Positions 42,872 to 57,804 of a stretch of DNA of 64,000 nt are shown piece by piece. The stretch comes from Silvimonas iriomotensis (GTDB lineage: Bacteria > Pseudomonadota > Gammaproteobacteria > Burkholderiales > Chitinibacteraceae). Under the pieces are notes generated by a model. The model had not been told where the DNA came from and made no database searches. It worked only from the letters and a program-made list of their open reading frames with translations. Within the stretch, counting starts at the first letter, position 1; each line of letters begins with the position of its first letter. The stretch covers positions 1,109,169 to 1,173,168 of the forward strand of contig NZ_BMLX01000001.1 in NCBI RefSeq assembly GCF_014645535.1, in the 5' to 3' direction. Position numbers and translations under genes: made by a program.

Positions 42872-42994
42872 GATTTATCTTCCGTGGAGTCTTGACGGTT
42901 TGATATTGCCCCCGTCAGATCGCCGTGCCGTTTCACGGGATGAGCCAGCATGTGCGAAAAAATTGCACATGCTGGTCTGGCACGGCGCAAGCAC

Positions 42995-43222
42995 TCACTT
43001 CTTTGCGGCAGCCTTAGCCAATCGGCGACCTGCCATGGCACACATGGGACAAAAACCAACCAGGCCGGTGGCCACGATTCCCAGTGCAGAAATGGCGACA
43101 ATCCAGCCAATCATTCCCGGCCAGTAGTAAACAGCCAGCGCTGCAACAACGAGGCCGGCAATCACGCGCAGAATGCGCTCCCAGTTCGGGAGATTTTTTG
43201 CGTAAAACATGGTGCTTAACAT
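42995..43222 (-). CDS. DUF2892 family small membrane protein
   Basis: 75 residues. 'NLPNWERILRVIAGLVVAALA' followed by a second hydrophobic segment and 'GFCPMCAMAG' with two cysteines is the DUF2892 pattern (YgaP C-terminal-like membrane domain). Two transmembrane helices are likely. It may bind or pass sulfur or metal via the CPxC-like motif, but this is inference. AAGGAG precedes the ATG at 43222. Confidence 0.8.
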   Translation of the reverse strand: MLSTMFYAKNLPNWERILRVIAGLVVAALAVYYWPGMIGWIVAISALGIVATGLVGFCPMCAMAGRRLAKAAAKK

Positions 43223-43430
43223 GGCGTTTCTCCTTGTGGTTTAGGCAGGAACTGTTTGCCAAAACAGGCTGGCATCAACGCTCCACCACAGGAAAACTAC
43301 GCCGCCATGGGCAACCCCGGATCAACAGTCAGTCTGCGTTGCAGCTATCACCATCGAGATAGACCGGATGCCGGGGGGGCACCAATAAAAACCCGTCTCC
43401 GGCAGCCCCAGTTAGCATGGACTCCGGAGA

Positions 43431-44411
43431 TTATTGCCGGGAACGGGGCCCGCGCATTTGGGCCGGAGTACGCCCGTTACAGCGCAAGCAGGCGCGCTCA
43501 AAATGCGCCATATCCACAAAACCCGCTTGCCGGCCGATCTCGGTTTCAGTCAGCCGCGCCCAAACAGGCGAAGTCAGTAACTGGGTGGCCAGGTCTATCC
43601 TCGCCGCCAGCAGGCTGGTTGCAAAGGTCTCAGAAAACGCGGATAAGGCCGCATGCAGATCGCTCTCGGAGACGCTCAGGAACGCCGCAATGTCGCTGGC
43701 GGTCAGCATGGGCTCGCCACACCGCTGCACAATACAGTCATGCACCGCGTCGCGCAGTGCCCGATCGGCCGCCTTGGGCGGATTTACATCACCTGAGTTC
43801 ATGGCCAGCAATGCACCAATCTGATCGGCCAGCACCGCGTGCGGCACCGGGGCGGAGGCCACAAACTCCGGAGACAGGCAGCTCAACACACTCGACAAGG
43901 TCTGCCCCCAACCCTCGCCCCTGGAAATGGGCCGTCCCACCAGCAGGCTGGGATCTGGTAGCCAGGCATTGACCCAATCCACCGGCAATTTCAGATTGAC
44001 GATGTCAAAGCGGGTATTAATCTCGATGTCGTGAGCAACTTGCGAGTCGGTCAATACCACGTCTCCGGGCATCAGCAGATGATGCCCGCGATGCACCAGT
44101 CCCCAATTGTTTTGCACGCTGACCAGCAAGTGATAGCTGTGTTCCTGGCTATAGCTCAACTCCCGGCGCGCCCGGTGACTATTGTGAGATGTGCCTTTGC
44201 AGCGGGTTACAGAAATCGACCCGAGTGACGTCGCAGTCAGCTGCGCAGAAAAGTCGCGCTCGTTGGTGCTATCGACACTCATGGGCGTCAGCGCAAGACT
44301 CAGGGCATTCGCCCAATAGTCAAAGCGCTGCGGGCGAGGAACTTCATTCGTAGACCAGACCTGGATGACGGGGTGTTTTTCGTGATTGTCCGTTGCCATG
44401 TGATGCACCAT
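43431..44411 (-). CDS. AraC family transcriptional regulator (array member 1)
   Basis: 326 residues. An AraC_binding_2-type (FeaR-like) N-terminal domain covers about 20-200, with 'PQRFDYWANALSLALTPM' and 'DSQVAHDIEINTRFDIVNLKLP'. The C-terminal double HTH (about 225-320) has 'ASDIAAFLSVSESDLHAAL' and 'EIGRQAGFVDMAHFERA'. It is the most downstream of three related regulators on the minus strand, and the second helix (MAHFERACLRCNG) has diverged most from the other two. A start at 44399 is an alternative; neither has a good ribosome site. The effector is unknown. Confidence 0.85.
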   Translation of the reverse strand: MVHHMATDNHEKHPVIQVWSTNEVPRPQRFDYWANALSLALTPMSVDSTNERDFSAQLTATSLGSISVTRCKGTSHNSHRARRELSYSQEHSYHLLVSVQNNWGLVHRGHHLLMPGDVVLTDSQVAHDIEINTRFDIVNLKLPVDWVNAWLPDPSLLVGRPISRGEGWGQTLSSVLSCLSPEFVASAPVPHAVLADQIGALLAMNSGDVNPPKAADRALRDAVHDCIVQRCGEPMLTASDIAAFLSVSESDLHAALSAFSETFATSLLAARIDLATQLLTSPVWARLTETEIGRQAGFVDMAHFERACLRCNGRTPAQMRGPRSRQ

Positions 44412-44544
44412 TGCCGTTTTTGTGAAGTTACCTGAGGTGGCCAGTCAGAGCAGGCCAGTCCCCCACGCTTATGCTATCTCCCGGCGCGGGCGCTAGATGG
44501 CCGTTGCCTGCCAACCTGTCAAAAGACATGGCTTGTATGTGCCA

Positions 44545-45525
44545 TCAGGCATCGGATCGTGTGCCTTGCACCTGCCGGACCTGGGCCGGTGTCGTCCCCA
44601 CGTGCTTGCGGAACACCCTGCCGAAATGGGAGGCGTCCGTGAAACCAGCGCGTCTGCCGATTTCTGCAGTGGTCAGTCGTTTGAACGAGGGGGATGTCAG
44701 CATGCGCAGGGCAACGTCCACCCGCGACGACATCAATAAATTGCCGAAAGTCTCTCCCCGGCCGGCTAGCGCCCGATGCAGCGTTCGGGGCGAAATATTC
44801 AAAGCCTGAGCTATTTCGGCGGCAACCAGCGCCGGATTGACGCAGTGCTGGGCGACACAATCGCGGATTTTGTCGCACAAGCTGATTTCAGGTCGGGATG
44901 GGGGTTCGGTCGTGGTGTCCAGCTCGCCCGCGGTCAACGCCAGCAACGCCCCCAACTGATCAGAAATGACGTCTCGCGGCACGGGGGAGCGCTGGATGGC
45001 CTGAGGCGTCAATTGCGCGGCAAACGCGCACAAGGCCTTGCCCCAGCCAAAGCGTGAATCGATACGACGCCCCAGCAGCACAGACGGTCGGGCCACCCAT
45101 TGTTTGACGAATATTTCAGATAACTTGAGGTTCACGACATCCGACACCTCGGGCAATTCAAGCCGCATGTCAATCCTAGAGTCGTAGAAAAGAGCATCGC
45201 CTGGCGTCGCGGTCAGTTTGTTCAGGTGCGTGAAATGGATACGGGAGTTCAGGTTCACAAACAGATGGAACACCCGCTCTTCGCTTTGCGCGATTTCACG
45301 CTTTCCCCTGGCCGAGACATGTTCGCAAGCGGCCAGGCGAAATGCGGAGTTAGTTCCGAAATCGGTCCAGGTCACGGTGATGTCAAATTCATTCCGCATG
45401 CAGCTGTCCACTTTCAGCGGCGTGAATGATTTCGCCATGACCTCGGCAAAACAACCAAAGCGCTCTTGGGCGGGAATCTGGGAAGAGGCCCACTTCTGAA
45501 TCTGGCGAATAGGGGTATCCATCAT
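44545..45525 (-). CDS. AraC family transcriptional regulator (array member 2)
   Basis: 326 residues with the same architecture as its neighbours. The N-terminal effector domain has 'QERFGCFAEVMAKSFTPLKVDS', 'DALFYDSRIDMRLELPEVSDVVNLKLS' and 'DSRFGWGKALCAFAAQLTP'. The C-terminal HTH has 'AAEIAQALNISPRTLHRAL' and 'EIGRRAGFTDASHFGRVFRKH'. It starts 31 bases after the stop of array member 3 with a CGGAAG site, so the two are probably cotranscribed. The array very likely arose by tandem duplication (inference from shared phrases). Confidence 0.87.
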   Translation of the reverse strand: MMDTPIRQIQKWASSQIPAQERFGCFAEVMAKSFTPLKVDSCMRNEFDITVTWTDFGTNSAFRLAACEHVSARGKREIAQSEERVFHLFVNLNSRIHFTHLNKLTATPGDALFYDSRIDMRLELPEVSDVVNLKLSEIFVKQWVARPSVLLGRRIDSRFGWGKALCAFAAQLTPQAIQRSPVPRDVISDQLGALLALTAGELDTTTEPPSRPEISLCDKIRDCVAQHCVNPALVAAEIAQALNISPRTLHRALAGRGETFGNLLMSSRVDVALRMLTSPSFKRLTTAEIGRRAGFTDASHFGRVFRKHVGTTPAQVRQVQGTRSDA

Positions 45526-45556
45526 TTTCTTCCGTCAAAAACTGGACTGTTTTGGC

Positions 45557-46516
45557 TTATTTGCGCGAAGCAGCGCGCAATTCCGTAGGGCTCAGGCCAA
45601 TGTGCTTTTTGAAGACGCGCGCAAAATGGGAGGCGTCGGCAAAGCCCGAACGTTTACCAATCTCGCCGGCGTTGAGCTTGTCGTAGAGTCTAGAAATCAG
45701 CATCCGTCTTGCGACCGCAATACGCGCCGCCATCAACACCGCCGCGAAGGTCTCGCCATGCGCCGCCAGCGCACGGTGCAGACTGCGCGGAGAAATATTG
45801 AGTGCTGTAGCCACATCGCTCGCGACCAGACGCACTTCTGAGCAACGCATCCTGATGCAGTCGTGAATTCGCGGGCGCAGCCCCGGCGCTGCTGCGTAAT
45901 GGGCGGCCCCATCAAAATGAGATGCTGCCAGGGCCAGTAATGCGCCAAGCTGGTCAACGATCAACTCTTGCGAGAACGGCGGACGCACCACAAATTCTGG
46001 CGTGAGCTGACCGGCAAACGCACACAGGGCAGCACCCCAGCCTGCTTTTGAATCGATACGGCTGCCCAGCAACACGTCAGGATCGGATACCCATTTGCCG
46101 ACGAAGTCTTCGGTCAGGCGCAGATTGACGATCTCGAAGGTCGCGGGTGTATCCAGCGTCATTCTGGTTCGGGAGTCGTAAAAGAGCGCGTCATCGGCAC
46201 GGGTCACAAACCGGTTCACGTTGTCGAAATGCATTTCGCCAACGCGGTTCACCAAGAGATGAAAAACCCTCTCTTCACTGCGTTCTATGTCGAGGACTGA
46301 CCGGACCGAGGCATGCGGGCAACCGTGCACATTAAAGACGGTATTTCCCGCCAGGTCGGCCCAGCGCATATCCAGTTCAAACGCTTCCGTAGGGCAATGC
46401 ACCACCCGCAAAGGGGTCATTGCCTTGGCCATGGTCTCGGCATATTGATCAAAGCGATCAGCCAAAGGCAGGTCAACGGCGGACCATGAGCTCACTGATT
46501 GGCCGGTATTTTCCAT
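45557..46516 (-). CDS. AraC family transcriptional regulator (array member 3)
   Basis: 319 residues. Effector-domain phrases shared with member 2 include 'FDQYAETMAKAMTPLRV', 'DALFYDSRTRMTLDTP', 'GSRIDSKAGWGAALCAFAGQLTPEFV' and 'VDQLGALLALA'. The HTH has 'ASDVATALNISPRSLHRAL' and 'EIGKRSGFADASHFARVFKKH'. It is the first gene of the array and carries the only obvious upstream operator, a 9+9 inverted repeat 44 bases before the ATG. I chose ATG at 46516 (MENTGQS); a longer frame to 46561 would place the operator inside the gene. Confidence 0.87.
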   Translation of the reverse strand: MENTGQSVSSWSAVDLPLADRFDQYAETMAKAMTPLRVVHCPTEAFELDMRWADLAGNTVFNVHGCPHASVRSVLDIERSEERVFHLLVNRVGEMHFDNVNRFVTRADDALFYDSRTRMTLDTPATFEIVNLRLTEDFVGKWVSDPDVLLGSRIDSKAGWGAALCAFAGQLTPEFVVRPPFSQELIVDQLGALLALAASHFDGAAHYAAAPGLRPRIHDCIRMRCSEVRLVASDVATALNISPRSLHRALAAHGETFAAVLMAARIAVARRMLISRLYDKLNAGEIGKRSGFADASHFARVFKKHIGLSPTELRAASRK

Positions 46517-46559
46517 GTGGACCCATCTCTCTCGAAATTTTCTGCCCAAGGCCGATGGC

Positions 46560-46582
46560 AATTTATGCCATTCGCATAAATT
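46560..46582. promoter_or_regulatory. Perfect inverted repeat, candidate operator of the AraC array
   Basis: AATTTATGC-CATTC-GCATAAATT is a 9+9 palindrome with a five-base spacer just upstream of the first AraC gene and within the divergent gap shared with the LuxR-type gene. The symmetry suggests a dimeric regulator; AraC proteins more often use direct repeats. Confidence 0.6.
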
Positions 46583-46936
46583 TGAACGACAACTGAAGTC
46601 ATTAAAACCCTAGCCTTCCATGTTAGCCGCAGCCCTATCACCCAGTGGCATCAACCCGGACTTTAGATAGAGAAATCCGTGCACCAATCGCAGTATTTCG
46701 GTGCGTCATGCCATGGGTTGCGCGCCTCTGATCATGACTTTGACATAAAAAGGGCCGCTTGGAACGTCATTAAAGCGACATGGCACGATCAGCCCAACTT
46801 ACCGCAGCCGAATGGCATTTACGATCCAGATGACAGGGATGCCGGTGCTTAGACTTTAATCACCTGCACTGCAGGCGGCTGGTCCTCAGCCCCTGGGTGG
46901 TTAGTCCGTTTCTTCAAATGCCGGAGGGTTAGTTCC
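46583..46936. other. Divergent intergenic region between the AraC array and the LuxR-type regulator
   Basis: About 350 bases without a gene. A consensus -35 TTGACA at 46740 lacks a good -10 at normal spacing on the plus strand. A small palindrome CCTGCA-C-TGCAGG is at 46863-46875, about 60 bases before the LuxR-type start. Confidence 0.45.
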
Positions 46937-47638
46937 ATGGATACACGATCAAACATCAATATTGATATTGTTCACGCCGATCAATTGATCAGCCTTGGAC
47001 TGGGTGAAGTCATGACCCGGTTTGCCGAATTCAAATACCGCATCCGTCCGCGTTTGCCGATTAACCAGTTCGAGCCTGGCGTCAGTGACGTCATCGTTGC
47101 GGACTACGACTTCGCACTGGAATTCGTCGAGCGGCAAAAGGGGGTTTCGCACTACCCAGCTTATGCACCGCGCGTCATGGTGTTGACCTCACGAGATCTG
47201 GAGTGGGATGTCCGTCGGGCCATGAACGTGGGCGTTCACGGTTACATGCTGTATGGCGCCACGGCGGACGAACTCCGGGTCGCGATCCACCGTTTGGTGG
47301 ACCAGGGCATTTATGTCTGCAATGCCGTTTCACAAAATCTGGTGAACACCTTGGGGCATGAGGCGCTCACCCCCCGCGAAATGTCTGTCCTTGAGCAAAT
47401 TTCACGTGGTGCCGGAAACCAGGACATTGCTGAAACGCTAGGCATTTCCGTGGGCACCGTCAAAACCCATGTTGGCGCCATCCTTGGCAAATTGCGAGCC
47501 AACTCTCGTACCGAGGCGGCGTCGATTGCGCTCGCACGTGGTCTCGTTTCGACCGCACGCAACTACTCAGACAAACACGCCCGTCTCCTGCCCCCCTTTG
47601 GCAGTGCAACTCTCGCCTCTGCAGGCGCTGCAGGCTGA
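46937..47638 (+). CDS. LuxR/FixJ-type regulator with atypical receiver domain
   Basis: 233 residues. A receiver-like domain (about 8-125) is followed by a LuxR HTH, 'ALTPREMSVLEQISRGAGNQDIAETLGISVGTVKTHVGAILGKL' in outline. The receiver is degenerate: the likely phospho-acceptor is D56 in 'IVADYDFAL', the N-terminal acidic pair is reduced to one Asp, and the conserved Lys before the last strand is replaced (GYMLYGA instead of GYLLK). It may work without phosphorylation. No histidine kinase is adjacent. GGAGGG precedes the ATG. Confidence 0.85.
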   Translation: MDTRSNINIDIVHADQLISLGLGEVMTRFAEFKYRIRPRLPINQFEPGVSDVIVADYDFALEFVERQKGVSHYPAYAPRVMVLTSRDLEWDVRRAMNVGVHGYMLYGATADELRVAIHRLVDQGIYVCNAVSQNLVNTLGHEALTPREMSVLEQISRGAGNQDIAETLGISVGTVKTHVGAILGKLRANSRTEAASIALARGLVSTARNYSDKHARLLPPFGSATLASAGAAG

Positions 47639-47785
47639 ACAACCCATCCTAAATCATTCGAAATTTTCGCACGACCTGATTTGATTCATGGCACGGCACC
47701 GAACAGGCCGGGTTGCACAATAGCTTCAAGGTCAAAACGAGACCTGGCTGTTTTTTCTACCTACATTTATATCTGGAGACGCATC

Positions 47786-48535
47786 ATGCAACGTTTTGAA
47801 GGCAAAACTGTTCTGGTTACCGGTGGCAGCAGCGGCATCGGTCTCGCAACCGCTCAAGCCTACGCCAAGGAAGGCGCGCAAGTTGTCATTACCGGGCGCG
47901 ACGACGCCACATTGGCTACAGCTGTGGCCGCAATCGGCAGCAAAGCCATTGCCATCCGTGCGGACTCGCAAAGTCTGGCTGATGCCAAAGCTCTGGGCCA
48001 AAGCCTTGCGAGCCGCAACCTCCGTCTTGATGCCGTATTCATCAACGCGGGCATCGCCAAATTTGCCGGTCTGGCAGATGTAACTGAAGACTTCTTTGAT
48101 GCGGCTTTTGGCATCAACGTCAAAGGCCCCTTCTTCCAGATCCAGGCCGTTGCGCCGTTGCTTAACCGTGGCGCAGCCATCGTGTTGAATGGTTCGATCA
48201 ACGCGCATATTGGCATGCCCAACACTGCCATCTATGCCGCAAGCAAAGCCGCGCTGGTGTCGCTGGCCAAAACCTTAAGTGCTGAATTGCTCCCACAAGG
48301 TGTGCGCGTCAACGTGGTAAGCCCGGGCCCGGTTGCCACCCCGCTGTACGGCAAACTGGGCATGGACTCCGATACGCTCACAGCCGTAGCCGAAAGCATC
48401 CGCGGGCAGATTCCGCTGGGGCGTTTTGGTACGCCGGAAGAACTGGCCTCCACCGTTCTGCACTTGAGTGCCCCGGAATCGGCATTCATTGTTGGCACTG
48501 AAATCATCGTTGATGGTGGGATGAGCCAACTGTAA
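47786..48535 (+). CDS. SDR family oxidoreductase
   Basis: A 249-residue classical SDR. The cofactor motif is 'VLVTGGSSGIGLATAQAYA', with 'VITGRDD' at the second strand (Arg favours NADP), 'INAGIAKFAGL', the catalytic Ser in 'LNGSINAHIG' and YAASK. The C-terminus 'VGTEIIVDGGMSQL' is typical. GGAG precedes the ATG at 47786. It lies 147 bases downstream of the LuxR-type gene on the same strand and could be its target. The substrate is unknown. Confidence 0.86.
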   Translation: MQRFEGKTVLVTGGSSGIGLATAQAYAKEGAQVVITGRDDATLATAVAAIGSKAIAIRADSQSLADAKALGQSLASRNLRLDAVFINAGIAKFAGLADVTEDFFDAAFGINVKGPFFQIQAVAPLLNRGAAIVLNGSINAHIGMPNTAIYAASKAALVSLAKTLSAELLPQGVRVNVVSPGPVATPLYGKLGMDSDTLTAVAESIRGQIPLGRFGTPEELASTVLHLSAPESAFIVGTEIIVDGGMSQL

Positions 48536-48548
48536 CAGTACGGGAATG

Positions 48549-48578
48549 CCCCGCCGGGCCAATCGTGCCCGGGCGGGG
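48549..48578. terminator. GC-rich hairpin between the SDR and oxidase operons
   Basis: CCCCGCCGGG pairs with CCCGGGCGGGG (one bulged base) just past the SDR stop codon. No T tract follows, so termination by this element alone is uncertain. Confidence 0.4.
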
Positions 48579-48659
48579 TATCTGAGCCGAAATTTGGGTC
48601 GAGGTGAGAAAACATCGGACTGCTGTCAGGTCATTCCCCAGCGGCTCTTTGCGGTGCTT

Positions 48660-49274
48660 TTATTTGCCGATCACCTGATCAAGCCCGCGGTCTTTAGCGC
48701 GGGCTGTATCTGCAACCACCTGCCAAAACCAGATGGCAACGATCATCGCCCCCACAAAAACGAGGCCATATCCCGCTATCTGTTGGTCATCAAGCCGATA
48801 GTAATTACACAGCCGCGCAGCGGGGTCCTGAAAGATCAGTCCAATGGTCACCGTCATCATGCTCCAGGTGATCAGAAAGTACGCCTGCAAAGCACGTCCG
48901 CTGACATGCCAAGACTGCTGTAGTGCAAGCCCGGCGGCCACCAGCACCAGCATTTTCAGGGCATCGACGTCTATTTGAGCTACGGCCTGATCCAGCGCCG
49001 CCGGGATCATCCAGAACGCTGTCACGAGCGATGCAAAAACGAGTCCGCTTAAGCCAAATCGGTTAACAAGAGCCGCCTTGCGCTGCCAGGGAAGTGGCAA
49101 CCTGGCGCCCAGCCAAACTCCACCCAATACCAGCACTGGGAACTGCCCAAGCATATGTAGCCACATTCGGGATTCAACCGTGTGCCGGCTACCCCAAACC
49201 GCACCAATCAGTGCACCAATCAACAGTGCCACGCGATAACGCCGGATTGCACGCCGCAGATCATAGACCTTCAT
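48660..49274 (-). CDS. Polytopic membrane protein of the oxidase operon
   Basis: 204 residues with about five or six transmembrane segments. 'SRMWLHMLGQFPVLVLGGVWLGARL' near residue 35 has a His-Met-x-x-x-Phe pattern slightly reminiscent of CtaG/Caa3-type assembly factors, but the match is weak and I do not name it. It overlaps the SCO gene by four bases (ATGA), so it is the last gene of the cbb3-like oxidase operon and is probably an assembly or accessory subunit (inference from context). Confidence 0.65.
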   Translation of the reverse strand: MKVYDLRRAIRRYRVALLIGALIGAVWGSRHTVESRMWLHMLGQFPVLVLGGVWLGARLPLPWQRKAALVNRFGLSGLVFASLVTAFWMIPAALDQAVAQIDVDALKMLVLVAAGLALQQSWHVSGRALQAYFLITWSMMTVTIGLIFQDPAARLCNYYRLDDQQIAGYGLVFVGAMIVAIWFWQVVADTARAKDRGLDQVIGK

Positions 49275-49936
49275 GTGTGCAGGTCCAGAGCATGGGCCAG
49301 CGCCATATCAAAATCATCGAGGTTGTAGATATGTTCAAGCCGGGCGTTGCGGTCCACTACATGAATGGCTGCATTGTGGATAAACCCACCGTAGCCATCG
49401 GGGATGACCACAATCCCAAACTGACGGAGCAGCAGATCCAGACTGGCGCGGTCCGTCACAGTCGCAAAGTGCCACACGGCGGGATCGGCATGCATGCGGC
49501 TGGCGTAGCTGGCCAACACGGCAGGAGTGTCGTGCTGCGCGTCAAAGCTGATGCTTAGCAGCCTGACTTTTTGCTGCAGTCCATGTTGCTCGATGTGGGT
49601 TTGTGCCTGCTGAAATTGCTCCCCAAGCACGGTACAAACGCTATTGCAGCGGGTGTAGATAAAGTCGATCAGTACCACACGTCCATCCAGACGCACATAC
49701 TGATCAAGCCGCTGCCGCTTGCCTGTTTCATCCATGATCTGCAGTGAAGGTAGTGGCAAGGGATGATCCATGATGGCGTGCCGGCGCAACATCTCCGTCG
49801 TCCAGCCTTCAAAGCCGCGCGTCAGTAGAGCGGTTGTGACCAATGCAAATAACAGCAGGCAGCAGGTCAACGTGATCGTGGGCCCAAGGCTGCCATTGAT
49901 CCCGTCAGCGATATTTTTCAAGATCTTGCCCACCAT
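49271..49936 (-). CDS. SCO family copper chaperone/thioredoxin-like protein
   Basis: 221 residues. One N-terminal transmembrane anchor (TLTCCLLLFALVTTALL) is followed by a periplasmic thioredoxin fold with the copper motif CxxxC in 'FIYTRCNSVCTVLGEQ' near residue 97, and the downstream His in 'GFIHNAAIHVVD'. SCO proteins deliver copper to oxidase centres (CuA, and in some bacteria the CuB of cbb3 enzymes). Because this operon has no CuA subunit, delivery to CuB is the more likely role here. It overlaps the upstream cytochrome gene by 32 bases. Confidence 0.88.
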   Translation of the reverse strand: MVGKILKNIADGINGSLGPTITLTCCLLLFALVTTALLTRGFEGWTTEMLRRHAIMDHPLPLPSLQIMDETGKRQRLDQYVRLDGRVVLIDFIYTRCNSVCTVLGEQFQQAQTHIEQHGLQQKVRLLSISFDAQHDTPAVLASYASRMHADPAVWHFATVTDRASLDLLLRQFGIVVIPDGYGGFIHNAAIHVVDRNARLEHIYNLDDFDMALAHALDLHT

Positions 49937-50495
49937 TCCACGGCGTGGTTTGAGCCTTGGTTAGATCACGGCCTTTCGCGACTGCAGCCGTGTCTATCGC
50001 CACGCCTTTATTGCCCCACTGGCTTCTCACGTGTGTGGCCACAGCGGCAATTTCAGCATCAGAAAACTTGGTGCCGAAGTTGGGCATCTCGCCGTTGAAT
50101 GTGTTGCCCTTGACCGTAATGCTGCCCTTAATGCCATGCAGCAGAATTTGAACGGTGACATCCGGCTTGCCGTTGAGATATTCGGACCCTGCCAACGGCG
50201 GAAATGCACCGGGCACACCCAAACCCGTGGCCTGGTGACATGCAACGCAATTAGCCGCAAACAACGCAGCCCCGTCCGCTGTCGCGCTTTTTGCCGGCGC
50301 GGCCATATCCGCCAGCACCCGCTGATCTCCCCATGTACCTGGCAGATTCAGCGGTGTTTCGGCGATATAAACGACGCCAAAGGTAAACAGGGCCGCAATC
50401 ACCAGCATGATGGCAAACGGCAATGGCTTGACCTGCTCGTTGGGATCGGGGTTTTCGCGCCGCTGCTGCACGGCATCGCTTTCTTGCTGGCTCAT
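49905..50495 (-). CDS. Membrane-anchored mono-haem cytochrome c
   Basis: 196 residues. A hydrophilic N-terminus is followed by one transmembrane helix ('LPFAIMLVIAALFTFGVVYIAE'), then a class I cytochrome c domain with the haem motif 'CVACHQATGLG' near residue 87 and the distal Met probably in 'GEMPNFGTKFSD'. There is only one haem site. In standard cbb3 oxidases the equivalent CcoP subunit has two, so this looks like a half-size substitute. It sits between the CcoO-like and SCO genes, same strand. Confidence 0.87.
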   Translation of the reverse strand: MSQQESDAVQQRRENPDPNEQVKPLPFAIMLVIAALFTFGVVYIAETPLNLPGTWGDQRVLADMAAPAKSATADGAALFAANCVACHQATGLGVPGAFPPLAGSEYLNGKPDVTVQILLHGIKGSITVKGNTFNGEMPNFGTKFSDAEIAAVATHVRSQWGNKGVAIDTAAVAKGRDLTKAQTTPWNGGQDLEKYR

Positions 50496-50511
50496 CGAAA
50501 CACTCCCTGAT

Positions 50512-51144
50512 TCATGACTGCCCTGCAGTTGCCGGCGCAGAGGCTACTGGCGGCAACACGGGCGCGTTATCGATGGGATAGGTGTGATCCAGCGACAACA
50601 AGTAGGCCACCAGATCAAGCGCTTTGGGTGTCGCCACCACCACCCCCGAAGCCGGCCGCCACGCTGGCGGCAGTTGCACGACCTTGTCGCCCGGTTCAGC
50701 TTTAGACTTGATCACAAACAGGAAGCGATAGCTGGGCATGATGCTGTCTTTGACATAAGCCCGAGGCTGATACAGGTGCCCAAGATGCCAGTCCACGCTG
50801 GGTTGCCGCGCAGCAATATTGAAGAGGTCCGGCCCGGTGCGCATCGTGCCCAGTAACACCGGGCGATCGTAGTAATAGTCCGCGGCAATCGGCGCCCTGC
50901 CCCAGCCACGCTTGAGGTCAGGCGCCTGACTAAGGCTGCGCGGCTGTTGAGAATGGCAAGCCATGCACTCGTTTTGCAGATAAATTTCACGCCCACGTTG
51001 GGCTTGTTCCGAGTACGGTTTGAGTTTGTCTGGCGGGCGCAGGTCACTAACTTCCGTATACGGAATCACGATCAGTACCGTGATGGTCAGCCCCATCATG
51101 AAAGAGGCCCCGACCAGCAAATCTTCACTGTTCATCAAGTTCAT
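50512..51144 (-). CDS. CcoO-like mono-haem cytochrome c subunit of a cbb3-type oxidase
   Basis: 210 residues. An N-terminal transmembrane helix ('ASFMMGLTITVLIVIPY') is followed by the haem motif 'CMACHSQQPRSLSQ' near residue 60. The CcoO/FixO phrases 'YYYDRPVLLGTMRTGPDL', 'WHLGHLYQPRAYVKDSIMPSY' are clear. It passes electrons to the CcoN-like subunit. The ATG overlaps the stop of the CcoN-like gene (ATGA), so the two subunits are translationally coupled. Confidence 0.9.
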   Translation of the reverse strand: MNLMNSEDLLVGASFMMGLTITVLIVIPYTEVSDLRPPDKLKPYSEQAQRGREIYLQNECMACHSQQPRSLSQAPDLKRGWGRAPIAADYYYDRPVLLGTMRTGPDLFNIAARQPSVDWHLGHLYQPRAYVKDSIMPSYRFLFVIKSKAEPGDKVVQLPPAWRPASGVVVATPKALDLVAYLLSLDHTYPIDNAPVLPPVASAPATAGQS

Positions 51145-52832
51145 AATGCGGCCCCTTCTTGTTGGAGCGGCTGTACAGCCAGATTCGGTGCCAGACCCGG
51201 CGGCATCGCGTCGCGCCAGAATAGAGCTTGGGTATGCCGCTTGGGGCCTAGCTTGAACACCATGGCCAGCACATGCACCGCAAACACCACGTGCCCTAAC
51301 GTCATCATGCCGCCGCCGATGGAGCGGCCGATCAGCCAGGGGCGGGTCACGATCACAGAATCAATAAATGGCTTGCTGGCATCCAGCATGGCTAAGCCCT
51401 GCAACACACCTCCGATGGTGAGCGCCGTGAAATACAGCCCAAAGCCAAGTACCACCAACCAGAAATGCAGCTGGATCGCCCACGGGTACGGCCATTCCCA
51501 CCCGCGCACCCGGGGCAGGATGAAGTAAAACGCGCCAAACATGACCATGGTCACGAAGCCGTACAGCCCGAGGTGGGCGTGTGCCACGGTAAAATGCGTG
51601 AAATGTGTAACGGTATTGATGGATCGCAGCGCCTCAAATGAGCCCTGCAAGGAACTCAGTGTGTACATCATTCCGCCGATCAGAATGAAGCGCAGCGTAG
51701 GTGAATGCACCCACATGCGGAAATGACCGCGCATGGTCATGTGCTGGTTGATGGTGAACGCAGCGACCGGGATGATCATCATCATGCTCTGCACGATGGA
51801 TAGCGTGATCAACCACGCTGGCGCAGGACTGCCCTCCAGGTGGTGCCCGCCTACCTGGCCATAGAAAAAAGCCAGCGTCCAGAAGCCCAGCAAAGACAGG
51901 TTGTAGTTCTCAATGGGACGACCAATGATCTTGGGGAGCAGGTAGTAAATGGTTGCCAGTGACAGCGGCGTATAGAACAGTCCCAGTACGTTGTGACCAA
52001 ACCACCAGTTTGCGGTAGCTTGTTCGATCCCGACGTGCACCGGCATCTTGGCCACGATCAACAGCACCGGAAACCAGAACAAAGCTGCCGACATATACCA
52101 GACCGAAACATACAGATGCCGGGTACGCCGGTGCCCGAGAGTATCGAGCAGCGGGATGCCAACCATCGCACCGCCCACCACCATGCCTGCGGCAATAGGC
52201 AGTGGAATTTCCAGCCACTCCAGACCGCTGTTGTAACCCGTAGCAATGGCAACAAGGCCGGCAATCAGGGACAAGTTCCAGATCACCCCACCCAGAATGG
52301 CCCACTGTCCGCTGCGCAAAGGGGTCTTCAAAAGTCGCGGGAGTATCCAGATGCAACTGGAAAGACAGGCCATCGGAGCCCAGCCATAGGCAACTGCATT
52401 GAGGTGAATGGTCCGGGTGACGCCAAAGCCGAGCCACATGGCACCTGTCAGCCAGTCAGGCTGGTGCAGTTTGATGGAACTGATTAGTCCGAAAGTCGAA
52501 GCAACGAGCAGCCATAGCACTGCCGCCGTCATCATGATCAGCACAATCAACGAGGTGGATTTATCTGATTCGATGCGCGCCAGAATGTCCGCCTCATCGA
52601 CATGCAAACCAATCTGGGCATGGCCTGTGCTGGTGGACTGCAGCCTTGCCCTGCTAGTCGCTGTGCCGGCCGGGTCTTCAACGAGGCCGACTTCGCCTTC
52701 GCTAAAAATCTCGCTGGCCGCTTCTTCTCCCCCGGTCAAGAGACTGCGGCCATTAGACCAGATGAAAAACATCAGCCCCAAAATGGCAATCACGAAGGCT
52801 GATAACAACATCCCCAAGGCATTCATGTTCAT
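51141..52832 (-). CDS. CcoN-like catalytic subunit of an atypical cbb3-type oxidase
   Basis: 563 residues with about 13 transmembrane segments. The haem-copper ligands are all visible: His in 'RTIHLNAVAYGW' (low-spin haem), 'WWFGHNVLGLF' and the His pair in 'GGHHLEGSPAPAW' (CuB), and the two His of 'VAHAHLG' (haems). A Tyr lies 44 residues after the first CuB His ('FFYGQVGGHH'), the position of the cross-linked Tyr in C-type oxidases, which supports oxygen reduction rather than NO reduction. Oddities are an extra N-terminal CcoS-like helix plus about 60 soluble residues, and Gln in place of a conserved Glu ('SSLQGSFEAL'). GAGGGA precedes the ATG. Confidence 0.9.
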   Translation of the reverse strand: MNMNALGMLLSAFVIAILGLMFFIWSNGRSLLTGGEEAASEIFSEGEVGLVEDPAGTATSRARLQSTSTGHAQIGLHVDEADILARIESDKSTSLIVLIMMTAAVLWLLVASTFGLISSIKLHQPDWLTGAMWLGFGVTRTIHLNAVAYGWAPMACLSSCIWILPRLLKTPLRSGQWAILGGVIWNLSLIAGLVAIATGYNSGLEWLEIPLPIAAGMVVGGAMVGIPLLDTLGHRRTRHLYVSVWYMSAALFWFPVLLIVAKMPVHVGIEQATANWWFGHNVLGLFYTPLSLATIYYLLPKIIGRPIENYNLSLLGFWTLAFFYGQVGGHHLEGSPAPAWLITLSIVQSMMMIIPVAAFTINQHMTMRGHFRMWVHSPTLRFILIGGMMYTLSSLQGSFEALRSINTVTHFTHFTVAHAHLGLYGFVTMVMFGAFYFILPRVRGWEWPYPWAIQLHFWLVVLGFGLYFTALTIGGVLQGLAMLDASKPFIDSVIVTRPWLIGRSIGGGMMTLGHVVFAVHVLAMVFKLGPKRHTQALFWRDAMPPGLAPNLAVQPLQQEGAAL

Positions 52833-53115
52833 CGTCCCTCAACTTGGTGTGAGGGAACCTTAAGCGGGGCTCGGGCGGGCCACATCCACCCTTGGTAATA
52901 CCCGGCACCCCACAGGCCGCTGAGGCTTATTTGCCGTGAAAAAATTTACTGGTAGTTATGGCTTTGGGCATAGATCAAAGGTCTTAGGTCGATCGCATAA
53001 CACATGTGCGACACCATCGAACGATTCCGGCGCGTTTCCGGTGTGTCACGCTGAGCAACAAACCTCAGACTTTTACTGGTGACTCCCACCCATCTGGCAT
53101 CAAGGAATCAAGGCC

Positions 53116-54099
53116 ATGAATCGATACCCTCTTCTTTCCCACGGTCTGACCACTGTCATTGCAGTACTCATGCTGGTTTTTCCTGGCAACACAATCGCAG
53201 CGCCTTCCGGAAGTCCTATCCCTGCAGCTGTAGCCGCTGCCACCGCCCGCATTACTGATGGAAAAGTCGAAGTAAATGGCGTGCGCTACCACTACCTGGT
53301 CGCCCAAGGTCACGGTACGCCGGTGGTTTTGCTGCATGGCTGGGGTTCAACCTCATACATGTGGCGGTTTGTAATGCCGCAACTGGCGGCACGCGGCTAT
53401 ACCGTGATCGCGCCAGATTTGCGCGGGCTGGGTGACACCAGCAAACCGGCCACTGGCTATGAAAAGGCCAATATCGCGGACGATATTCACGAACTGGTCG
53501 CCAAATTGGGCTATGGCCCTGAAATCAATATTGCCGGGCATGATATGGGCGGGATGGTGGCTTATGCCTACGCGGCCCAGCACCCTGCCGAGGTGAAAAC
53601 ACTAACGATTCTGGATGTGCCGTTGCCAGGCATCCCGCCCTGGAATGAGATCGTCCAGACCCCGCGTGTATGGCATTTCGCCTTCTTCGGGCAACGTGAT
53701 GTCGGTGAGATGCTGATGGCCGGACACGAGAAAGAATTCATGGCTTGGTTCCACAACAACGAAGCGGTGAACTCACGCGCATTTACCAATGAAGTGGAGG
53801 CCGTCTATGCCCGCCAGTACAGCATGCCCGGTGCCATGCGCGCCGGTTTCGAGTACTACCGCGCCTTCCCGCAAGACGTGATTGCCAACCAGAAATTTGC
53901 CGAACACAAATTGACCATGCCGGTATTGGGTATTGGCGGTGACGGCAGCTTCGGCCCGATTATTGGCGCGCACCTGCAGAACGTGGCCACCGATGTTCAT
54001 GTGGCGCAGATCAAGGGATCAGGTCATTGGGTGGCCGAAGAGCAACCAGAGCAAGTGACGGCAGCACTAGTCGCATTCTTGCCGCCTGCTGGCAATTGA
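53116..54099 (+). CDS. Exported alpha/beta hydrolase, epoxide-hydrolase-like
   Basis: 327 residues with a signal peptide ending around NTIAAPSG. 'VVLLHGWGSTSYMWRFVMPQL' is the oxyanion region, Asp is the predicted nucleophile in 'NIAGHDMGGMVAYAYAAQHP', and the late His is in 'GSGHWVAEEQPEQ'. This is the epoxide hydrolase/haloalkane dehalogenase class. It is a paralogue of the protein at 41933-42871. It is transcribed away from the oxidase operon, with a 283-base gap between them, and converges on the LysR gene. Confidence 0.85.
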   Translation: MNRYPLLSHGLTTVIAVLMLVFPGNTIAAPSGSPIPAAVAAATARITDGKVEVNGVRYHYLVAQGHGTPVVLLHGWGSTSYMWRFVMPQLAARGYTVIAPDLRGLGDTSKPATGYEKANIADDIHELVAKLGYGPEINIAGHDMGGMVAYAYAAQHPAEVKTLTILDVPLPGIPPWNEIVQTPRVWHFAFFGQRDVGEMLMAGHEKEFMAWFHNNEAVNSRAFTNEVEAVYARQYSMPGAMRAGFEYYRAFPQDVIANQKFAEHKLTMPVLGIGGDGSFGPIIGAHLQNVATDVHVAQIKGSGHWVAEEQPEQVTAALVAFLPPAGN

Positions 54100-54123
54100 A
54101 ACCTGGTTGTGCAAGGCGGCTGG

Positions 54124-55035
54124 CTAACGCGTCAATCCATCGACCAGACGCTGTGCCAGCCGCGGCTGCTGCAGTTTTTCGAGCCACCACTTCAAGGCTC
54201 GACCGGCCAGTTCTTCGCGCCAGGCAACGTACAGGATATTAGGCTCGCGTGGTTGGGCGGTGCGCTTTTCGACTAGCTTTCCCTCCTGTAACAGGTGTTC
54301 TACCCGATGACGCGGCAACCACCCCACACCTAGCGCTTCGCACTGGGCCAGCATCTTGGCCCGCATGCTGGGTACTGCTAGCGCGGGTTGCCCACCCAGT
54401 ACGCCATACACGCGACCCTCCGTTTGCCTGGAGCTATCTGCCACCACCACGGCGCGGTGCGCAGAGATCGCCTCACGGCTCAACGGCTCTGGCATGGCCG
54501 CCAACGCATGTTTGGAAGAAACAGCGAAGACCCATTCCAGTCGACCCAACTCTCGCCAACTCACGCCGGGCATCTTTTGCGGTTCGTTGGTGGCACCAAT
54601 GACCAGATTGGCGCGGCCGTCCCGCAGCGCCTCCCAGGTGCCACCCAATACTTCATTGGTAATACGTAAAGGAACGCCGGACTGGAGTTCATCAAAATCC
54701 CTGATGACCGGCAACAAGGTTTCGAACTCCATCAGCTCGTCAGTGACGATCCACAGGCGCTCTTCCCACCCATTGGCTACCTGGCGTACCCGCTGCATGG
54801 TTCGGGCCGACTCCTGCTGCAACCGCGCGGACTCATCCATCAGCAGGTTACCAGCCGGCGTGAGTTGCAATCGGTAATTGCGCCGATCAAACAGTAAGGC
54901 ATCGACGCGAGATTCTAGCTGGCGGGCGGCATGCGACACCGTAGACGGCGCTTTGCCCAGCTTTGCCGCCGCCCGTGAAAGGCTGCCGGTATCTCGAATG
55001 GCCTGGAGCAATGCCAGCTCTTCTGCCTGCAACAT
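54124..55035 (-). CDS. LysR family transcriptional regulator
   Basis: 303 residues. The N-terminal winged HTH is 'LALLQAIRDTGSLSRAAAKLGKAPSTVSHAARQLE', and the rest is a periplasmic-binding-like effector domain. The ATG at 55035 gives the normal N-terminus MLQAEEL. It is divergent from the glutathione S-transferase gene with a 112-base gap containing an inverted repeat, the usual layout for a LysR regulator and its target. The effector is unknown; GST and VOC neighbours point to an electrophile or xenobiotic (inference). Confidence 0.9.
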   Translation of the reverse strand: MLQAEELALLQAIRDTGSLSRAAAKLGKAPSTVSHAARQLESRVDALLFDRRNYRLQLTPAGNLLMDESARLQQESARTMQRVRQVANGWEERLWIVTDELMEFETLLPVIRDFDELQSGVPLRITNEVLGGTWEALRDGRANLVIGATNEPQKMPGVSWRELGRLEWVFAVSSKHALAAMPEPLSREAISAHRAVVVADSSRQTEGRVYGVLGGQPALAVPSMRAKMLAQCEALGVGWLPRHRVEHLLQEGKLVEKRTAQPREPNILYVAWREELAGRALKWWLEKLQQPRLAQRLVDGLTR

Positions 55036-55037
55036 GT

Positions 55038-55068
55038 TCGAAAGTCTCGCACGAAATCGGTCTTTCGA
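55038..55068. promoter_or_regulatory. Inverted repeat in the LysR/GST divergent gap
   Basis: TCGAAAG and CTTTCGA, 7+7 bases separated by 17, begin two bases upstream of the LysR start codon. The site could serve autorepression and control of the GST gene, whose start is 80 bases away. Confidence 0.5.
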
Positions 55069-55147
55069 TAGTACGGCAACGGGCACGTTCTGGTCGAGTA
55101 TATGGGCAAGCACTCACTGGCCTTGCCAGAGCAACCGGAGACTTCCC

Positions 55148-55828
55148 ATGACACTGAAATTCTATTTCCACCCATCCCCCAACCCGATGAAGGTGGCTTT
55201 ATTGCTCGAAGAACTGCTGGTCTATTACGAACTGATCGCCGTTGATACCTTCAAGGGCGAGCAACACGAAGCCGGCTATTTGCAGATAAATCCTAACGGC
55301 AAAGTACCCGCGCTGGTGGATGGCGACACTACCGTGTTTGATTCACACGCCATCTTGCTATACCTCGCAGAAAAACATGGCCAGTTCATGCCGACTGATC
55401 CCAACGAACGTGCCATTACCCTGTCTTGGTTGATGTTCGTCGCTACCGGACTGTCTCCGTTTTCTGGCCAGGCGGTGCATTTCCTGCATCACTCCCCTGA
55501 AAAATTGGCTTATGCCCAGAACCGGTACCTCAAAGAGGTTCAGCGCCATTACACGGTGCTGGACCGTCGCTTGGCCGTCTCTCACTACCTGGGTGGTGAT
55601 AGCTATACCGTTGCCGACATGGCATTCTGGGGCTGGGTGAATGTGGCCGGTTACATCCTTGGTGAAAACGGGCTGGATGCTTACCCCAACGTGAAACGAC
55701 TTTACGAAGAGGTGTCTGAGCGCCCTGCAGCAAGGCGGGCTCGCACCCTCAAAGATCGCCTGACGCTGAAACAGGATTTCGACGAGGAAACCCGTCGCGC
55801 CCTGTTTCCGCAGAACGAGCCAGCTTGA
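55148..55828 (+). CDS. Glutathione S-transferase
   Basis: 226 residues. The N-terminal thioredoxin-like domain has 'FYFHPSPNPMKVALLLEE', the cis-Pro motif 'NPNGKVPALVDGD' and 'VFDSHAILLYLAEKHG'. The all-helical C-terminal domain has 'YTVADMAFWGWVNV'. The N-terminal Ser/Asn (SPNPMK) rather than Cys suggests a Theta/Nu-type or YfcG-like transferase. It conjugates or reduces with glutathione in the cytoplasm. It is followed at 36 bases by a VOC-family gene, likely the same operon, and is divergent from the LysR gene. Confidence 0.9.
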   Translation: MTLKFYFHPSPNPMKVALLLEELLVYYELIAVDTFKGEQHEAGYLQINPNGKVPALVDGDTTVFDSHAILLYLAEKHGQFMPTDPNERAITLSWLMFVATGLSPFSGQAVHFLHHSPEKLAYAQNRYLKEVQRHYTVLDRRLAVSHYLGGDSYTVADMAFWGWVNVAGYILGENGLDAYPNVKRLYEEVSERPAARRARTLKDRLTLKQDFDEETRRALFPQNEPA

Positions 55829-55864
55829 TTCGCCCGATAGACCAATCCCCAAGGAGAAGCAGCC

Positions 55865-56305
55865 ATGCAAATCTCACCCCCATCACTTGATGGCCAATTG
55901 CGCTTGAGCAATCTCGCGCTCGCCGTCGCCGACTTGCCGAAAATGGTGAATTGGTACCAGTCCGTTCTAGGGTTCAAGGTCGACACGGAAGGCGAGTTTC
56001 CGATCGTCGGTGCCCGCTATGCCGTACTGGAAGGCGCAGGCCTGCGGATTGAACTGATTACACGTACGGGCGCAAACTTCCGGCCGGTTGACCGCAGTCC
56101 GCCACCGTTTCATCTCTCGCAACTGGGTTGGAAGGCTTTGGTACTGCATAGCGAAGACCTGAAAACTACCACTGCTGTTTTGCGCGCCCATGATGTCGAG
56201 ATTTGCTGGGCTGAAGAGAAAACCACGGAGCATCTCAAATCCACGCTGATTCGGGATCCTGAGGGCAATTTCATCAATATTTTTGGCCCCTTGCAGGACG
56301 ACTGA
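55865..56305 (+). CDS. VOC superfamily (glyoxalase/bleomycin resistance/dioxygenase) protein
   Basis: 146 residues forming one VOC domain with two beta-alpha-beta modules: 'LSNLALAVADLPKMVNWYQSVLGFKVD' at the start and 'LRDPEGNFINIFGPLQ'-like 'IRDPEGNFINIFGP' at the end, with Glu/Asn near the metal position. The metal ligands cannot be assigned with certainty. The position after a GST gene suggests glutathione-related detoxification. AGGAGAAG precedes the ATG. Confidence 0.83.
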   Translation: MQISPPSLDGQLRLSNLALAVADLPKMVNWYQSVLGFKVDTEGEFPIVGARYAVLEGAGLRIELITRTGANFRPVDRSPPPFHLSQLGWKALVLHSEDLKTTTAVLRAHDVEICWAEEKTTEHLKSTLIRDPEGNFINIFGPLQDD

Positions 56306-56376
56306 CGCGGGATAAACGTGACATCTCCTCTTTTGGGTCTGGACCCGCACCCGGCGTTTGCGGAAAGATTCAGGGC

Positions 56377-57804
56377 ATGGACATTCACATCACCCTGCAG
56401 GGTAAAACCGATCTGGCCGGGCAGATTTACCGTCAACTTCGCGCTAGCATTGTTGATGGTCGTCTGGCGGCGGGCGAGCGTTTGCCCTCTACTCGCGATC
56501 TGGCCAGTCAGCTCAGTGTGTCGCGCAAGACCACGCTGGATGTGTTTGAACGGCTGTTGTCAGAAGGCTTTTTGCAAAGCCGGCCAGGTGATGGCACTTT
56601 TGTGGCGGATGGTCTTCAACGCATTCCAGTCAGCTCACCGATCGTTCATCGTGCTCGCCCGACTGCCTTGTGGGAGTCTTTGCCCGCCGCTCTATCCATG
56701 CCTGAATTTGGCAGCACTCCGCCGCTCGATTTTCTGGGGGGTGTGACTGATAAATCGCGCTTTCCGTTTGAGCCTTGGCGGCGCTGCCTGAACCACGCCC
56801 AAAGACAACAGGCCCGTGGTCGGGCTGCATATCACGACCCTGCGGGCGAGCAAGAACTGAGGCTGGGGATTTCCCGCTATCTGGCTTTCAACCGCGCAGT
56901 CACCAGCAATTGGCAAGACGTGATCGTGACGCATGGCGCGCAGCAGGCACTGGACTTGTTGGCGCGCGTCACGCTGAATCCGGGTGATGTCGTTGCCATG
57001 GAAGAGCCTGGCTACCCACCCGCACGTGCCTGCTTTACTGCGGCCGGTGCAAAAGTCATCAGCGTGCCTGTCGATGCGGAGGGTCTGCGAGTCGATCTAT
57101 TACCCAAGGAAGCCCGGCTGGTTTACGTGACTCCCTCACACCAGTTCCCCTTGGGGATGCCGTTAAGCCTGGATCGGCGCCTTGCCTTGCTGGAATGGGC
57201 GCAGAACACCGGGGCCGCCATTATTGAAGACGACTACGATGGCGAATTCCGCTTTGATGGACGCCCACTGGAATCGCTCAAGTGCCTGGATCGATTTGGT
57301 CTCGTGGCCTATGTCGGCACGTTCTCCAAGACCATGTTTCCGGAGTTGCGGGTGGGTTATATCGTTCCACCGCTGTCCCTTTCTGCTGCGCTATTGAAAG
57401 CCAAACAGATTGTCGACTGGCACAGCTCTACCTTTACGCAGGCGGCCATTGCCCGCTTCATACTGGACGGCGATTTTGCCAAGCATTTGCGGCGTATCTA
57501 CAAGCAATACGAAGCGCGACGTGACTTATTGCTGAAACATCTGAATGGGCCGCTCGGCGCTTGGCTGGAACCAGTCATCCCTGCTGCCGGCATCCACCTT
57601 ACCGCCTTGCTAAAACAAGGCCTGACTGAAAGCAGCGTCATCGCGGCCGCGAGCGAACAAGGTGTGGGCCTGTATGGCATTTCGAGCTTCTACGCTGACA
57701 CAGAACCCCGCCAAGGCCTGTTGTTCGGCTACGGCGGCATCAGTGAAGAAGAGATCGAAATCGCATTGAACAAGTTGGCCGACGTCTTCCGTTCTCTTGA
57801 ATGA
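56377..57804 (+). CDS. MocR-type regulator (GntR HTH fused to class I aminotransferase fold)
   Basis: 475 residues. An N-terminal GntR winged HTH (about 10-75: 'QIYRQLRASIVDGRLAAGERLPSTRDLASQLSVSRKTTLDVFERLLSEG' in outline) is followed by a PLP-binding aminotransferase-like domain with 'HGAQQALDLLARV', 'EDDYDGEFRF' and the PLP Lys in 'GTFSKTMFPELRVGY'. MocR regulators such as PdxR and GabR sense PLP or amines. It is downstream of the VOC gene by 71 bases. Its target is not obvious, since no pdx or gab genes are adjacent. Confidence 0.9.
   Translation: MDIHITLQGKTDLAGQIYRQLRASIVDGRLAAGERLPSTRDLASQLSVSRKTTLDVFERLLSEGFLQSRPGDGTFVADGLQRIPVSSPIVHRARPTALWESLPAALSMPEFGSTPPLDFLGGVTDKSRFPFEPWRRCLNHAQRQQARGRAAYHDPAGEQELRLGISRYLAFNRAVTSNWQDVIVTHGAQQALDLLARVTLNPGDVVAMEEPGYPPARACFTAAGAKVISVPVDAEGLRVDLLPKEARLVYVTPSHQFPLGMPLSLDRRLALLEWAQNTGAAIIEDDYDGEFRFDGRPLESLKCLDRFGLVAYVGTFSKTMFPELRVGYIVPPLSLSAALLKAKQIVDWHSSTFTQAAIARFILDGDFAKHLRRIYKQYEARRDLLLKHLNGPLGAWLEPVIPAAGIHLTALLKQGLTESSVIAAASEQGVGLYGISSFYADTEPRQGLLFGYGGISEEEIEIALNKLADVFRSLE

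Follow-up and report, generated by a model that had tools for sequence, protein, structure and literature searches.

A predicted variant C-type oxidase operon of Silvimonas iriomotensis that encodes some of its own putative assembly factors

What kind of enzyme is encoded by an operon that resembles the cbb3 gene set and yet departs from its standard parts list, and under which conditions would it be used? The question is raised by five genes on the minus strand of a 64,000-nucleotide stretch of the Silvimonas iriomotensis genome (contig NZ_BMLX01000001.1, positions 1,109,169 to 1,173,168; the whole stretch is called the window below). They lie at window positions 48660 to 52832 and encode a CcoN-like and a CcoO-like subunit (here variant CcoN and variant CcoO), a CcoP-like cytochrome c with a single haem motif, a SCO/SenC copper chaperone and a helical membrane protein, Orf1. 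Sequence comparison gives good support to reading the operon as a variant of the C-type cytochrome c oxidases that brings some of its assembly kit along, and we consider it rather probable that this is an alternative oxidase, deployed under stress and equipped with dedicated copper loading.

In the proposed mechanism, variant CcoN would reduce O2 at a haem b3-CuB site, electrons would enter via two membrane-anchored mono-haem cytochromes, variant CcoO and the one-haem CcoP, and protons would be supplied through a single K-pathway. The operon would also bring part of its own maturation, in the form of a CcoS-like segment fused to the catalytic subunit, the SCO protein and Orf1; the SCO protein would hand copper to CuB, in the way known for SenC and the cbb3 of Rhodobacter capsulatus, with Orf1 as a partner membrane protein. 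The oxidase is most probably switched on by stress, which in several relatives appears to be nitric oxide (NO), since NsrR-like boxes, NsrR/RirA-type regulators or NnrS adjoin the operon there. Gene content, phylogeny, active-site residues and the conserved gene linkage are observed directly, and from them we infer O2 as the substrate, copper delivery by SCO and Orf1, a role under NO or other stress and the same role in Silvimonas.

The catalytic subunit and its branch

The gene of variant CcoN (positions 51141 to 52832, minus strand; 563 aa; Pfam COX1, 248.9 bits) encodes histidines at residues 143, 280, 330, 331, 418 and 420, with Tyr324 in the place of Tyr251 of the Pseudomonas stutzeri protein, Gln396 in that of Glu323 and Gly316 in that of His243. 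In P. stutzeri numbering, used from here on, H60, H207, Y251, H257, H258, H345 and H347 are kept in all 21 variant CcoN proteins aligned, as are T215, Y223, Y237, N289 and Y317 of the K-pathway region, with S240 in 20 of them. The broad features of C-type oxidases are thus found, namely six histidine ligands, a tyrosine on the helix before His257-His258 and a single K-pathway, H243 excepted (0/21). We take Y251 to be the cross-linked tyrosine. With the haem and CuB ligands, the tyrosine at 251 and most of the K-pathway unchanged in all 21 relatives, O2 reduction is likely to be the reaction of variant CcoN, as judged from these residues.

Two substitutions set the group apart. Glutamine replaces Glu323, a residue that presumably adjoins the proximal histidine, in 21/21 variant rows, and His243 has become glycine in 20 and alanine in one; canonical controls in the same alignment have Glu323 in 18/18 and His243 in 17/18 (the exception is L061). 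The NO reductase (NOR) controls, five of five cNOR and two of two further NOR rows (L091 and the qNOR rows stand outside this alignment), are without Y251 and Y223 and have a glutamate at 215. An NO reductase by sequence is rejected on this alignment, in which variant CcoN keeps the tyrosine and is missing the NOR-type glutamate. Gln323 is also found in three rows of another deep C-type-like branch (L079, L083 and L085; 468 aa), which have Tyr251 as well, but alanine at 317 and histidine at 237.

The predicted model of variant CcoN (pLDDT 80.6, pTM 0.86) has CcoN of 3mk7 as its best solved match (Z 41.2, rmsd 2.3 over 443 residues), above NOR (Z 36.2) and A-type folds (about 31).

For phylogeny, rows were labelled by operon content before any tree was built, A for operons with SCO and Orf1 genes and B for operons with neither, and canonical CcoN was drawn from Pseudomonadota only. 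A maximum-likelihood tree of 59 haem-copper subunit rows places the nine A rows in one clade (100/98), itself part of a clade of 21 A and B rows (98/96); the 18 canonical CcoN group elsewhere (100/100), and the NorB, qNOR, A-type and B-type rows likewise lie outside. When other plasmid-borne C-type variants were added (54-row maximum-likelihood tree), 20 of the 21 A and B rows grouped at 100/99 and the A rows at 100/98; L056, a long branch, shifted to a neighbouring branch of rhizobial and Acetobacter-type variants. Clade A is nested beside B in this tree, with weak support for the branch order. Consistent with this placement, variant CcoN scores 233 bits against the NCBIfam ccoN equivalog TIGR00780, whose cut-off is 583.15, and variant CcoO scores 99.1 bits against the ccoO equivalog, below its cut-off of 200.65. 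A canonical cbb3 isoform is rejected by both trees and by the equivalog cut-offs. The initial annotation had proposed a separate branch of C-type oxidases, which agrees with the two trees and the unreached cut-offs; the placement inside canonical CcoN that would have spoken against it was not found among the canonical cbb3, NorB and variant rows compared.

The enzyme differs from canonical cbb3 by its CcoN equivalog score and by the lack of a dihaem CcoP, and from cNOR by having no glutamate at 215, keeping the tyrosine and falling outside the NorB branch. As to sNOR (NorSY), no protein of the operon gives a COX2 match, and the NorY row stands on a distant branch. With cbb3 it shares the CcoN-nearest fold, the haem and CuB ligands, the tyrosine position, most K-pathway residues, a FixO-type CcoO and a CcoP-like subunit, but it differs in its separate branch, the fused CcoS-like segment, the single haem of the CcoP-like subunit, the glutamine at 323 and the absence of a histidine at 243.

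Other non-canonical C-type oxidases are described in the part of PMC3578206 that covers the unusual cbb3 enzymes of Nitrospina and Sinorhizobium; the Nitrospina enzyme is reported there as three subunits in one fused protein of 954 aa with a two-haem part. Rhizobial D1 rows lie on a branch neighbouring the variant oxidase in the 54-row tree. A C-type variant is also found on two rhizobial plasmids (L104, L108), where SCO, hemA, TauE/SafE and P-type ATPase genes lie in the stretch around it. Plasmids of Paraburkholderia fungorum (L105) and Acetobacter (L107) carry another C-type variant operon, on a distinct branch, near genes for DsrE-family and substrate-binding proteins.

Subunits, operon layout and the fused CcoS-like segment

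The initial annotation had placed five overlapping or closely spaced minus-strand genes here, and the list of open reading frames (ORFs) and the Pfam matches bear out both the coordinates and the arrangement, in which three junctions overlap by 4, 32 and 4 bp and the fourth leaves a 16 bp gap. COX1, FixO, Cytochrom_C and SCO1-SenC pass their Pfam cut-offs. The same five-gene order is found in nine tree rows, the window included, two of which are Silvimonas; it recurs in Silvimonas terrae, Leeia oryzae, a Methylophilaceae metagenome-assembled genome (MAG), Azoarcus KH32C, Cupriavidus metallidurans CH34 and three further genomes, and because of this recurrence we do not attribute it to chance. 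Gene names in loci without annotation were mostly assigned by eye.

Variant CcoO (positions 50512 to 51144, minus strand; Pfam FixO, 105.1 bits) is a mono-haem cytochrome c subunit II with CxxCH at residues 60-64. The third subunit (positions 49905 to 50495, minus strand; Pfam Cytochrom_C, 53.0 bits) has one predicted membrane helix near its start and one CxxCH (residues 83-87), and it matches the ccoP model at 56.7 bits over model positions 95-212, below the cut-off of 179.95. A motif E-x-x-x-P-x-P precedes the helix in all nine A rows and likewise in the canonical CcoP of the same genome. The protein reads as a CcoP cut to one haem, and the mono-haem cytochrome c first noted in place of a dihaem CcoP is in accordance with this, as a CcoP-like protein that falls below the ccoP cut-off. 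Across 16 rows the count of CxxCH is one in 15 and three in L039, where the start of the ORF is uncertain. In that Paracoccus plasmid (about 10712-12400) the cytochrome frame continues into two more CxxCH motifs, a possible fusion to a dihaem cytochrome.

The first approximately 55 residues of variant CcoN (positions 52668 to 52832, minus strand, with an approximate end) appear to be CcoS-like. Seventeen of the 21 variant CcoN rows begin with a helix and a short tail, which canonical CcoN is without. Pfam FixS matches 6 of 20 variant proteins, the window protein not being one of them, and in L043 it matches a separate gene. A profile of the 17 fused ends, run against 2547 ORFs from 23 loci, gave nine matches with E < 0.01 (the next at 0.66), which by eye are seven CcoS-type proteins and two CcoQ; three of the seven sit upstream of the unfused ccoN genes of L043, L044 and L046. 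A simple loss of CcoS is rejected by this result. In both R. capsulatus and Campylobacter jejuni, cbb3 is reported to depend on CcoS for its activity (PMC8267372).

The description of the operon as reduced and lacking CcoQ, CcoG, CcoH, CcoI and CcoS was hence half right. No separate gene for CcoQ, CcoG, CcoH or CcoI was seen within the operon, which has SCO and Orf1 as further differences from cbb3, but the CcoS-like segment is fused to the catalytic subunit and not lost. C-type oxidases are usually treated as uniform cbb3 enzymes, and this branch breaks the standard parts list through the fused segment, the one-haem CcoP, the altered residues near haem b3 and lineage-specific copper modules. 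It thereby offers natural experiments on which cbb3 assembly parts are essential.

The Silvimonas enzyme would be an additional one, since a canonical set is present elsewhere in the genome. A search of the same genome for COX1 returned four genes, by eye aa3, bo3, a canonical cbb3 and the variant described here, none of them NorB-like. The canonical set (L098; named by eye) comprises ccoI, ccoS, ccoN, ccoO, ccoQ, a dihaem ccoP, ccoG and two ccoH-like genes.

SCO, Orf1 and the copper modules

The SCO/SenC protein (positions 49271 to 49936, minus strand; Pfam SCO1-SenC, 49.9 bits against a cut-off of 22.8) has Cys97, Cys101 and His187, and the CxxxC motif and the histidine are kept in all ten SCO proteins aligned, which places it within the SCO/SenC family. 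In R. capsulatus, copper is described as passing from CcoI to SenC and on to cbb3 (PMC8475189, seen in part).

Orf1 (positions 48660 to 49274, minus strand) is a helical membrane protein and a putative assembly factor, whose match to DUF1404 (PF07185; 23.1 bits, E 6.8e-5) lies below the cut-off of 29.4. The family matches 8 of 10 Orf1 relatives at E<=0.1 (best 3.7e-8), and gives no match at E 0.001 for the Orf1 linked to norSY in genome G768. A Foldseek search with Orf1 found no match at E < 0.001, the best being VIA at a Z of 5.2, which is not meaningful, and a profile search of the PDB returned weak matches to small proteins only. A literature search, with most subscription journals outside its coverage, brought to notice no paper on DUF1404 by name and none on this operon; the parts of the C. 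metallidurans genome paper that were seen, whose locus tags are unmapped, hold no obvious description of it.

The genomic linkage of Orf1 is more telling. A profile of the nine Orf1 proteins from A operons, run against 398 Pseudomonadota genomes, found nine genes in seven genomes (these searches scored at most 8 or 10 first-look candidates per genome, so that misses are possible), and 9/9 adjoin SCO and a haem-copper oxidase gene. Four of them belong to operons of the variant-oxidase kind (G000, G663, G743 and G768) and five, read by eye, to norS-norY-SCO-orf1 clusters (G431, G524, G526, a second site in G768 and a second in G743); the cluster of G768 directly follows its variant oxidase operon. 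A profile that includes one norSY-linked row matched in 5 of 299 genomes. The order equals that of the sNOR cluster norSY-senC-orf1 of ammonia oxidisers, as given in the part of PMC6967387 seen, where the enzyme is considered both as an NO reductase and as a high-affinity oxidase. The likeness is one of gene order and of the SCO (SenC) and Orf1 pair, whereas the NorY-type subunit belongs to another haem-copper lineage, has no tyrosine at the aligned position and is paired with a COX2-like subunit.

Copper loading by SCO and Orf1 is likely on the strength of this linkage, which supports the dedicated copper delivery first suggested for the operon; the nine rows with SCO and the membrane protein form one clade. 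Orf1 can now be named as a specific candidate for a factor that assembles copper sites. One step further, SCO and Orf1 might form a portable copper-loading cassette on two unrelated haem-copper enzymes (variant CcoN and NorSY), in several cases within NO-responsive settings; the cassette may replace the CcoI/CcoG route and let CuB be loaded and respiration continue during NO exposure; we raise this tentatively and regard it as doubtful. The cupric reductase step of the CcoI/CcoG route uses iron-sulfur centres that NO could damage.

Other putative copper modules are found in the B lineage. All eight B loci with a fused CcoS segment have an ORF for a P-type ATPase (8/8); the one scanned, in L041, passes a heavy-metal model and remains below the cut-off of the copper model (372.6 against 397 bits). 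No such ORF was seen in the stretches fetched for L043, L044 and L046, where CopC or CopD genes adjoin the operons, on the opposite strand where checked (by Pfam CopC and CopD at L046 and CopD at L043; by eye at L044), and none was found in the eight A loci scanned. A swap of copper modules between the A and B lineages is plausible because clade A is nested beside B, with the branch order weakly supported as stated above.

Nitric oxide, competing roles and distribution

Use under NO stress is plausible for some relatives, as far as neighbouring genes and promoter motifs indicate. The NsrR consensus is given as gATGyAT-N5-ATrCATc in the part of PMC1274295 seen; our working pattern, scored out of 16, extends and widens this published form, which is scored out of 14. 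In Leeia a 16/16 box (0/200 shuffles; 12/14 on the published form) lies 66 bp before the start of variant ccoN, accompanied by an NsrR-like gene. An NsrR-like gene is also present in G768, where a 14/16 box (12/14) precedes nnrS; a run on the same strand leads from nnrS through a small cysteine-tailed ORF and a ferredoxin-like ORF to variant ccoN, and norS of this genome is preceded by a 16/16 (14/14) box. NnrS lies just upstream of variant ccoN in G743, a 13/16 box (1/200 shuffles) is found in Azoarcus and a 14/16 box (0/200 shuffles) at the clade B copy L037, and the norSY clusters of G431, G524 and G526 each lie beside an NsrR/RirA-type Rrf2 gene. Counting eight genera or genomes of clade A, with Silvimonas taken once, the signs of NO are clear in three (Leeia, G768 and G743) and weak in Azoarcus. 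NnrS occurs in 12 of 14 operon-bearing genomes, compared with 88 of 185 genomes in a class sample that partly overlaps with them and is thus not independent; within the genus it is found in three operon-bearing genomes and not in the operon-less G003. The link with norSY and with NsrR-type regulators makes it testable whether some bacteria possess an NO-tolerant respiratory branch with its own assembly line.

A number of observations weigh against a stress-deployed oxidase with an assembly route of its own. Signs of NO were found in none of four A members (Silvimonas, the Methylophilaceae MAG, C. metallidurans and G663); the whole window holds no NsrR-like box, the best site scoring 12/16, and no outstanding box lies upstream of the operons of S. 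terrae, Methylophilaceae, C. metallidurans and G663. The Azoarcus box is not outstanding on the published consensus. In 797,704 bases of fetched loci there are 11 sites at 14/16 or above and 13 at 13/16, several of the latter in unrelated places. The Rrf2 regulators fall below the NCBIfam NsrR cut-off, with the RirA model scoring slightly higher in two of six, and the second norS-norY-SCO-orf1 cluster of G743 is without such a regulator or box in the 8 kb fetched. NnrS is common anyway, clade B operons adjoin sulfite-oxidase or other sulfur genes instead, and the canonical CcoI and CcoG encoded elsewhere in the Silvimonas genome could in principle help to assemble the variant. We hold the stress reading slightly less firmly in view of the Azoarcus box, which lost strength on rescoring, and of the missing regulator at the second cluster of G743. 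The Silvimonas genome does have an NsrR-like gene, and its hmp-nnrS genes are preceded by two 13/16 sites, the oxidase operon by none. As for FNR, no convincing box was seen upstream of the operons, the lowest shuffle fraction being 0.085.

The absence of an NsrR box in the window is what would be expected if the operon encoded an ordinary spare high-affinity cbb3 isoform, acquired horizontally and serving no special stress role, with SCO and Orf1 only aiding copper insertion when copper is low. Its occurrence in three of four Silvimonas genomes and in 1 of 24 order mates, together with carriage on plasmids or megaplasmids in relatives, points the same way; the separate branch, marked by residues and genes of its own, and the NO-type neighbourhood in three other clade A loci, do not, and we hold this explanation to be unlikely. 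It is still less probable that the enzyme is an NO reductase on a C-type oxidase frame, which in vivo would remove NO with O2 as a side substrate. Such a role would suit the NsrR-like boxes and the NnrS or norSY neighbours of some relatives, a genome in which none of the four COX1 genes is NorB-like and the ability of C-type oxidases to reduce NO (PMC8780969, seen in part), but variant CcoN lies outside NorB in both trees, keeps the catalytic tyrosine and most K-pathway residues in 21/21 rows without the NOR-type glutamate, has clade B relatives beside sulfite-oxidase or sulfur genes and occurs in a genome that already has Hmp for NO. That the operon provides a terminal oxidase reserved for one substrate-oxidation chain, like the sulfite-oxidase-linked operons of clade B, and is tied here to the hydrolase, short-chain dehydrogenase/reductase (SDR), AraC and MocR neighbours, is very improbable, since the recurrence of such neighbours in C. 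metallidurans and the sulfite-oxidase-type genes of Paraburkholderia (both described below) are outweighed by flanking window genes on the other strand, by neighbours that do not recur in other A loci and by a MocR relative in a genome without the operon. The stress-deployed C-type oxidase with dedicated copper loading is the reading that we prefer.

Around the operon, the two flanking genes of the window lie on the opposite strand, and fnr (22190-22936) and hemN (20575-21972), both named by eye, are about 26 kb away. The C. metallidurans CH34 operon is surrounded by a MocR (62% identity), AraC-type regulators, an SDR and an alpha/beta hydrolase that resemble window proteins (window 41158-57804 and L035 4230-14445), although its oxidase groups with G663 and not with Silvimonas; these neighbours belong to large families. 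A relative of the MocR, 70-72% identical, is present as well in the operon-less G003 and in G006. Apart from one LuxR-type match in Leeia, the window neighbours have no counterparts around the operons of Leeia, Azoarcus and the Methylophilaceae MAG. On Paraburkholderia plasmids (L036 and L037) the operon is prolonged by genes for a P-type ATPase, a molybdopterin protein of the sulfite-oxidase type and a cytochrome c, and the stretch also encodes a SLAC1/TDT transporter; a plasmid-borne chain from sulfite to oxygen is possible there. Because the NO-type, C. metallidurans and sulfite-oxidase-type neighbourhoods differ, we conclude that the oxidase core serves in more than one setting.

The patchy distribution of the operon fits horizontal transfer. 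A search with variant CcoO found 4 of 61 close relatives with strong matches (E < 1e-50), three belonging to the same genus; at E 1e-30 it found 6 of 369 genomes of the class and 7 of 398 of the phylum, the own genome counted each time; the E. coli genomes searched gave no match. The closest named relative, Silvimonas amylolytica (L005), has a variant CcoN that is 99.8% identical, and in the plasmid collection several relatives' copies lie on plasmids or megaplasmids. In genome G486 (L055, G486:C15, about 314734-315571) variant ccoO stands with only a fragment of variant ccoN, and the operon looks decayed. Among phages a single record matches, at 28% identity, and the record of Pseudomonas phage Ostro has a gene annotated as cbb3 subunit I at 46252-47583.

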